A DNA stretch of 64,000 bases from Methylococcales bacterium (GTDB taxonomy: Bacteria > Pseudomonadota > Gammaproteobacteria > Methylococcales > Methylomonadaceae). Positions 2,871 through 23,035 of this stretch are shown piece by piece. The position numbers and the translations under genes were made by a program. How positions within the stretch are numbered: position 1 is the first letter of the stretch; every line of letters begins with the position of its first letter. The stretch spans positions 1 to 64,000 of the forward strand of contig JAPLRS010000042.1 of NCBI GenBank assembly GCA_026399015.1. Direction: 5' to 3'. The notes under the pieces were generated by a model, which worked only from the letters and a program-made list of their open reading frames with translations, was not told the origin of the DNA and ran no database searches.

Positions 2871-4481
2871 GTGGATTTAAAACATATCAGAAATTTCTCC
2901 ATTATCGCGCATATTGATCATGGAAAATCTACCCTTGCCGACCGTGAAGTATCTCGCTCTTTAGCGGCCTGTGAAGGCGCCCTACTAATCGTAGATGCGG
3001 CCCAAGGCGTTGAAGCACAAAGTGTAGCAAACTGCTATACCGCGATTGAGCAAGGTTTAGAAGTAGTTCCTGTCCTTAATAAAATTGATTTACCCTCTGC
3101 TGAGCCTGAGCGCGTTAAAAATGAAATTGAAGAAGTCATTGGCATTCCTGCTGACGAAGCTTTAATGATTAGCGCAAAAACCGGCCTAGGCGTATTGGAT
3201 GTATTAGAACAATTAGTCATTAAAGTGCCACACCCAGTGGGTGATCCAGAAGGTCCATTACAAGCTTTGATTATCGACTCTTGGTTTGATAGTTATTTGG
3301 GCGTGGTATCTTTAGTTAGAATTATGCATGGCAGTATTCGTAGAAAACAAAAGATTACTATCATGTCTACCGGCAAATCTTTTATCGCAGAAAAAGTCGG
3401 TGTATTTACCCCTAAACGTTTAGAAAAAGAGCTTTTGAATACTGGCGAAGTAGGCTATGTAGTGGCGGGTATTAAAGATATTTTTGGTGCTCCGGTTGGC
3501 GATACCATCACTTGGACAGATAAGCCGGCCCCAGAACAATTAACCGGTTTTCAACGCGTACAACCCCGAGTTTTTGCTGGCTTATATCCTGTTAGCTCTG
3601 ATGATTATGAGGGCTTACGTGAGGCACTTAATAAATTAAATCTTAATGATGCAGCTCTACAGTTTGAACCCGAATCGTCACAAGCCTTAGGTTTTGGTTT
3701 CCGTTGTGGATTTTTAGGCATGTTGCATATGGAAATTGTGCAAGAGCGCTTAGAGAGAGAATACAATGTTGACCTGATTACGACAGCACCAACTGTAATC
3801 TATGAAGTGATCACCCAAACTGGCGATATTTTAATGGTTGATAACCCTGCCGATTTGCCGGATGGCGGTGTCGTTAAGGAAATCAGAGAGCCCATTATTC
3901 GCGCGAATATTTTAGTGCCCCAAACTTATTTGGGCGGCGTTATCACTTTATGTATTGAGAAACGTGGCATACAGAAAGATATGCAATATGTAGGTAGCCA
4001 AGTATCTTTGCATTATGAAATGCCATTAAGTGAAGTGGTTCTGGACTTTTTTGATCGCTTAAAATCAGTGAGCCGTGGTTTTGCTTCTTTTGATTATGAG
4101 TTCTTACGCTTCCAACCAGCCGACCTTGTTAAATTGGATGTATTAATCAACGCAGACAAAGTTGATGCTTTATCTATCATCGTACATCGTGATTTAAGTA
4201 ATAATCGTGGCCGTGATTTAGTCGAAAAGATGAAAGATTTAATTCCTCGACAAATGTACGAAGTAGCGATTCAAGCGGCTATTGGATCGAAGATTATCGC
4301 GCGCTCTACCGTTAAAGCCATGCGTAAAAACGTAATCGCTAAATGTTATGGCGGTGATATTAGCCGCAAGAAGAAGTTATTAGAAAAACAAAAAGCCGGT
4401 AAAAAACGCATGAAACAAGTAGGCAACATTGAGATACCTCAAGAAGCATTCTTGGCGGTATTACAATTAAACAAAGAATAA
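2871..4481 (+). CDS. lepA: Elongation factor 4 (LepA) with internal in-frame deletion
   Basis: 536 aa against about 599 for the family. LepA is a ribosome-binding translational GTPase that back-translocates or remodels elongating ribosomes. The start (GTG) and P-loop AHIDHGKST are normal, but TLADR at residues 22-26 runs straight into [14 protein letters not shown]. In other LepA proteins these are separated by about 63 residues containing switch I (the G2 threonine, ERERGITI) and the G3 motif DTPGH with the catalytic His. NKID (G4), SAK (G5), domains II-V and the lysine-rich C-terminal domain are intact and the frame is open. As read, it may bind but should not hydrolyse GTP normally. A strain deletion or an assembly error would look the same. 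Confidence 0.9.
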
Positions 4482-21605: not shown

Positions 21606-21620
21606 TTTACGACTGTTTTA

Positions 21621-22997
21621 ATGAGCCAATCTTCGCATCTCATCTCATCTGAATTACGAGCACAGGCTTTAAAAATATTTAAAGCTGGCGTATTGGCGGC
21701 AGACCCATATTTAGCAGTTAAACAAGCTATTTCTATTGAAGATAACTTAATAAAGCTTGCCTTAAACGCGACACCAGATAAAAATCAATTTATCAGTAAA
21801 GACTGGTCAAAAGTGCATATTATTGCTTTTGGCAAAGCCGCTTATGCCATGACGCAAGCGGTATTAGATATTATCCCTAGCGCCTTAATTGCTAACGATA
21901 GCATTTTGGTTACGCATCAAGAAAATACCGCAACACTTAGCAATATAAATGTGCTTATAGCAGGCCACCCACTACCTGACGCTAACGGCCTACTGGCTGC
22001 AAAAAAATGCGCCGCCATAGCAAGCAATGCAAAACCTGACGAACTTATTTTAGTGTTAATTAGTGGCGGTGGTTCAGCCCTAATCCCTTATCCGGTTGAC
22101 TCGATAACACTCGCAGAAAAAATCTCCACCACCGATTTACTCTTAGCCAGTGGCGCTAACATCCATGAGATTAATTGTGTACGCAAACACTTATCACAAT
22201 TAAAAGGCGGACTTATGGCCAAACTTGCGGCCCCAACTGACTTACATGCTATTATTTTGTCAGATGTTTTAGATGACGATTTAAGCGTCATTGCAAGTGG
22301 CCCAACGGTTGCAGATAGCACTACTTTTACTGATGCCATCCATATTCTAAATAAATATAAGCTATGGGATAAAGCCCCACAGACAGTTAAAGACTATTTA
22401 GAACAAGGACAAAATGGCTTAGTAAGTGAAACACCTAAAGCTAAAGATAGTGTTTTTCCTAATACCAGCCATACTTTAATTGGTAGCAATGCTATCAGTC
22501 TAAAAGAAACTGTAAAAACGGCGGGCGATCTAGGATTTAAAACTCAAATTTATAATAACCAACTATCGGGTGAAGCTAGTCAAGTAGCTGAAGATTGGGT
22601 TAAATATGCAAAAAACCTCTGTGACACTGGCCTTATTAAACCAATAGCTTTATTAGCAGGTGGTGAAACCACGGTCACCTTAAAAGGTAAAGGTAAAGGC
22701 GGACGTAATCAAGAAATGTGTTTAGCTTTTGCTATCGCCGCAGAAAAACAAGCTTTGGTTACGGACTGGGTTTTTTTAAGTGGGGGCACAGATGGTCGTG
22801 ATGGACCGACAGATGCAGCGGGTGGTTTAATAGATAATAACAGTTTAACGCGTATGCTTACTTTAGAAAAAAATCCCTATAGTTTATTATCTGACAATAA
22901 CGCCTATGTGGCCTTACAAAGTTCCGATGACCTTTTAATAACTGGAGCAACCGGAACTAATGTCGCTGATTTACAAGTTTTACTTTTACACCCCTAA
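21621..22997 (+). CDS. gck: Glycerate 2-kinase (MOFRL/DUF4147 family)
   Basis: 458 aa. Phosphorylates D-glycerate to 2-phosphoglycerate, the product of the serine cycle that enters central metabolism. The two domains of the class II glycerate kinases are visible: the N-terminal DUF4147 domain (to about 300) with AFGKAAYAM near 72, [10 protein letters not shown], and [13 protein letters not shown] near 156, then the MOFRL domain with [21 protein letters not shown] at about 347 and [16 protein letters not shown] at about 391. Directly downstream of mtdA. Its pairing with hprA gives a complete hydroxypyruvate-to-2PG branch in this cluster. Confidence 0.93.
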
Positions 22998-23035
22998 TCC
23001 AACTCGAATATTCATTCTTAAATTCAGGAGACACT

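Follow-up and report, generated by a model that had tools for sequence, protein, structure and literature searches.

The lepA gene at positions 2871 to 4481 of the window (the whole stretch of DNA analysed, 64,000 nucleotides) lacks 189 bases carried by its relatives, and the best explanation, to which we assign a probability of roughly 0.6, is that this segment was dropped in the making of the draft assembly and that the organism most likely has an ordinary full-length lepA. An earlier note on this DNA had left a choice between a GTPase-dead EF4 and a collapsed segment; the former is the less likely, while the latter is favoured by three more clean losses elsewhere in this genome and is here extended from lepA to the whole assembly. 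The window represents bases 1-64000 of the 67,065-base contig C19 and contains no N letters. The genome (G000 below) is a draft of 2,696,958 bases in 47 contigs, 86.47% complete and 0.38% contaminated. The features of lepA and its neighbourhood are:

2871..4481, + strand: lepA open reading frame of 536 aa, starting with GTG and 63 codons short of its length in relatives; TIGR01393, 839.4 bits (cut-off 533.9)
2907..2933, + strand: G1/P-loop AHIDHGKST, residues 13-21, sequence kept
2944..2946, + strand: junction at which 189 bases of the relatives are absent; T2945 fits either side
2988..2990, + strand: codon 40, V40I, the sole private amino-acid change against five close relatives
3078..3089, + strand: NKID, residues 70-73, which we take to be G4, kept
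3171..3179, + strand: SAK, residues 101-103, presumably G5, kept
4146..4466, + strand: LepA_C domain, residues 426-532, complete; PF06421, profile 1-107 of 107, 170 bits
4548..5324, + strand: lepB, signal peptidase I, the gene after lepA; TIGR02227
5449..6129, + strand: rnc, ribonuclease III; TIGR02191
6129..7013, + strand: era, GTPase Era; TIGR00436

The absence of switch I and the DTPGH motif from this 536-aa LepA, reported in the earlier note, is borne out by the sequence, the open reading frame and the alignment with relatives. Against close relatives exactly 63 codons, or 189 bases, are missing between R25 and E26, so that the predicted size of about 63 residues was right and that of 190 bases was one too many; the placement of one edge base, the T at 2945, is ambiguous between the two sides. 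The removed piece carries G2/switch I, G3 DTPGH and the catalytic histidine, just as had been proposed. Both residues bordering the break are invariant across 56 aligned LepA proteins, as is the P-loop. The TIGR01393 score, LepA_C, G1, the NKxD of G4 and the SAK of G5 all place the protein in the LepA/EF4 family, of whose hallmarks G2/switch I and G3 DTPGH with the catalytic histidine are absent. The intact LepA of G022, a relative in the genus, scores 987.8 bits with TIGR01393, and its best Pfam G-domain stretch spans profile positions 1-187 of 188, compared with 84-187 in the window protein, whereas EFG_C and LepA_C match identical profile positions in the two proteins. With the catalytic histidine gone, the shortened EF4 would be expected to lack ribosome-dependent GTPase activity, since the H81A change alone reduces GTP hydrolysis by EF4 to background, with ribosome binding kept (excerpt of PMC4339808).

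AlphaFold models were built for the window protein and an intact relative from the same 56 sequences. In the former, residues 15-28 have a pLDDT below 50 and no helix follows the P-loop; the latter shows a strand (6-13), a helix (19-29) and two further strands (60-66 and 72-78), together with a weak stretch of its own (42-58). As the mean pLDDT is only 68.5 for the window protein and 69.2 for the intact one, the difference counts as support only, and these models make the folding of the shortened G domain doubtful. The proposal that the ribosome-binding domains remain thus holds in sequence, the later domains being complete by Pfam, and becomes uncertain at the level of fold. Downstream, where the note had described the operon genes as intact, lepB, rnc, era, recO and pdxJ are all recognised by NCBIfam. 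Further along the window, the gene at 21618-23018 is cut short at its end by seven codons relative to its counterparts in the two genomes used for the comparison below (G006 and G022), and ordinary small changes therefore occur in this genome too.

The alignment with lepA of relatives that the note had called for shows the loss to be confined to this genome among those tested. Among 110 lepA loci examined, one is the window itself and one (L085) has no readable start region; the distance from the P-loop motif to EVSRS is 77 residues, DTPGH included, in all 108 others, which retain the 63 residues, and 14 in the window. Some of these 108 loci are one genome present in two collections, and they do not represent 108 independent genomes. 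Two loci with a similar match length (L053 and L074) were considered as fellow carriers of the deletion and rejected, both being intact. In a genus search, 32 of the 34 other genomes matched the tested piece, none starting before residue 24, and two gave no match; an older, shared deletion was rejected, as no tested genus genome has the same loss. Of 274 genomes of the class, 266 gave a match, and among the matches listed (in E-value order) that of this genome alone starts at residue 1. One row of that search (G293; residues 2-72, 68%, open frame of 659 aa) is read as a probable alignment of the P-loop onto the DTPGH region. A search of all contigs with the piece from a relative found, besides the flanks, only chance matches and paralogues belonging to other families; on these grounds both a duplicate lepA and a copy of the missing piece on a different contig were rejected.

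What remains of the gene is under the same strong constraint as its sister genes. In a comparison with five close relatives, private changes in the window lepA number one at the amino-acid level and 24 silent, against 0-3 and 3-44, respectively, in the other lepA genes. The dN/dS ratio is about 0.008-0.017 in pairs that include the window and about 0.009-0.024 in pairs that do not. Had constraint been absent for 10% of the branch, the probability of at most one amino-acid change would be 0.009, by a rough Poisson calculation that assumes 2.8 non-silent sites for each silent one. Relaxed selection following an old deletion was rejected, its pattern not being seen in the private changes. The strong constraint therefore implies that the deletion is very young, is not in the organism, or is harmless to function.

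An assembly artefact was to be recognised by further clean losses of segments elsewhere in the assembly, and three more genes were found to have them. The comparison set 1,145,169 bases of the genome against 1,226,098 of G006 and 246,406 of G022; matches no shorter than 200 bases and no less than 72% identical cover 530,904 bases. It listed 40 differences of at least 30 bases, 20 in each direction (two being the same event against both relatives), most of them outside or partly outside open reading frames. When the count takes in those wholly inside open reading frames, and not those overlapping them partly in either direction, there are four clean losses in the 530,904 covered bases, namely the 189 bases of lepA and the following:

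G000:C1:24972-25355 (L163:4972-5355): HbpS-like gene, 138 bases lost in frame, against G006 and G022
G000:C13:2552-3883 (L199:2552-3883): CusB-like efflux gene, 87 bases lost in frame, the DNA gap being against G022 only
G000:C12:1987-2760 (L166): gene for what we take to be a PpiC-like lipoprotein, 175 bases lost out of frame near the gene end, against G006 only

In the PpiC-like gene the tail past the gap still reads well in the other frame. The HbpS-like gene is in two pieces only in this genome (1 of 31 genus genomes matched) and in a single piece in the 30 others, and the CusB-like gene is likewise split here alone (1 of 15) and unsplit in 14 others. In both of these genus searches a stop lies inside the match in the rows of several relatives. 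The CusC-like neighbour at G000:C13:3858-5219 is 24 residues shorter than in G022 in a poorly conserved leader, and was not counted as a further loss because the alignment shows this leader to be variable. The ends at the four joins share no more than a single base (0-1), two of these joins hold one base that is left unexplained, and no runs of N of the assembly's own, marking scaffold gaps, were found. The probability that at least three of four losses are in frame by chance is 0.11. The description of the lepA deletion as exactly in frame is correct in itself and loses its force as a hint of biology, given this probability and the three additional clean losses, of which the PpiC-like one breaks the frame.

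In the relatives, the same comparison found 48 and 30 bases missing wholly inside open reading frames, as well as 22 residues missing from a poorly conserved stretch. Set against each other as a control, with 110,036 bases aligned, a smaller set than that of the main comparison, G022 and G006 differ at four places by 33-78 bases. Frame damage was surveyed in a census of proteins of at least 150 aa, of which 326 of G006 and 138 of G022 were comparable. Proteins covered to less than 80% (7 and 2, respectively) were left out and the last 20 columns ignored; these thresholds flag neither lepA nor the HbpS-like gene, both of which come from the DNA comparison. Frame breaks appeared in the PpiC-like gene and in one open reading frame taken for an antisense frame; of the stops, two precede likely starts and two others fall in the antisense frame. 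After alignment, the stops ahead of likely starts and the antisense frames were not counted as gene damage. No point frameshift in this genome was accepted as real in the census, the PpiC-like gene being the sole accepted frame break. The 665-aa open reading frame at G000:C25:5286-7280 is 98% identical to its match on G006:C10, which has one stop inside it.

Ku had no match in any of the 35 genus genomes in a search that, among 14 control genomes, matched Bacillus subtilis only, and Ku end joining was rejected on that basis. No direct repeat joining the gap ends was found in the nearest intact gene (L010:1240-1560), the join sharing one base, and repeat-mediated deletion was rejected as well. 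An imperfect 12-base inverted repeat, with one arm at the right end of the gap and the other 51 bases left of its left end, was given no weight.

A dropped segment is favoured because the losses are clean, of 87-189 bases, in unrelated places, without end homology and in a genus without Ku, and because lepA is otherwise strongly constrained. The sequence may have been closed up over a piece that was unsequenced or tangled, leaving no N between the two stretches, possibly through faulty gap closing or removal of N runs. A join with 0-1 base of overlap is not made by a k-mer assembler by itself, and some later step must therefore be assumed. Also counting against a dropped segment are the lack of N in the assembly, the occurrence of ordinary small changes such as that at 21618-23018, and the fact that three of the four losses are in frame and the fourth lies at a gene tail, as selection on real deletions would favour. 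A real and recent deletion is accordingly a possibility to be taken seriously, though a clearly less probable one. The sequenced cells would then have a broken lepA whose product, if stable, would not hydrolyse GTP and would act as a null, the frame having been kept by chance or to spare the downstream lepB, rnc and era. Natural gene decay usually adds stops and small frameshifts beside larger deletions, whereas here the three more clean losses have hardly any small frameshift beside them, and the constrained remnant, the lack of Ku and the lack of a repeat at both gap ends also speak against it. The real deletion retains its weight from the clean in-frame join unlike that of a k-mer assembler, the in-frame majority, the absence of N runs and the dispensability of the gene: in the excerpts of the sources, E. 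coli grows without obvious defect when lepA is deleted (PMC4245954), its loss is tolerated (PMC4342817), and clinical M. tuberculosis isolates have lepA mutations with partial loss of function (PMC7242378).

That the shortened EF4 is functional, binding the ribosome through its later domains, working without GTP hydrolysis and remaining under selection, is very improbable. The constrained remnant, the complete later domains and the ribosome binding of GTPase-dead H81A (PMC4339808, in excerpt) would fit such a protein; we rate it this low because, in the excerpted part of PMC4245954, H81A does not complement lepA-dependent growth phenotypes in E. coli. In addition, no other tested genome has the same loss, the modelled G domain has no helix after the P-loop, and a long-standing variant should show a change pattern of its own, which is not seen. 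It is equally hard to credit a mixed population in which a minority deletion allele was assembled in place of the common intact one; this would reconcile the constraint with the clean join, but it is needed at four places, and the intact segment is on no contig of the genome. Least probable of all is a natural GTPase-less EF4 of a methanotroph lineage that would still be made as a useful ribosome binder, its gap being one of several clean deletions inside proteins of this strain by Ku-independent end joining.

Were the deletion real and the shortened protein functional, this would be a natural separation of ribosome binding by EF4 from GTP hydrolysis. For now, the lepA case is mainly a warning about a draft genome. 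Four losses in 531 kb extrapolate to about 20 possible ones in the 2.70 Mb draft, and odd truncations read from it therefore need checking against reads.

The laboratory GTPase-dead EF4 H81A (excerpts of PMC4339808 and PMC4245954) resembles the window protein in the absence of the catalytic histidine; it differs in that it keeps its fold and nucleotide binding, whereas the window protein has lost two strands, switch I and the DTPGH loop. No paper combining LepA, an in-frame deletion and the GTP-binding domain was found in the literature searched. The intact LepA/EF4 (TIGR01393) of G022 shares with the window protein its start region, domains II and III, EFG_C and LepA_C, with more than 98% identical residues outside the gap, and differs from it in possessing the 63-residue segment that includes switch I, DTPGH and the catalytic histidine. 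Draft assemblies with dropped segments show several clean internal losses per genome, in unrelated places and without end homology. Except that three of four are in frame (chance 0.11) and that the joins carry no N, the losses described here resemble these in all three respects.
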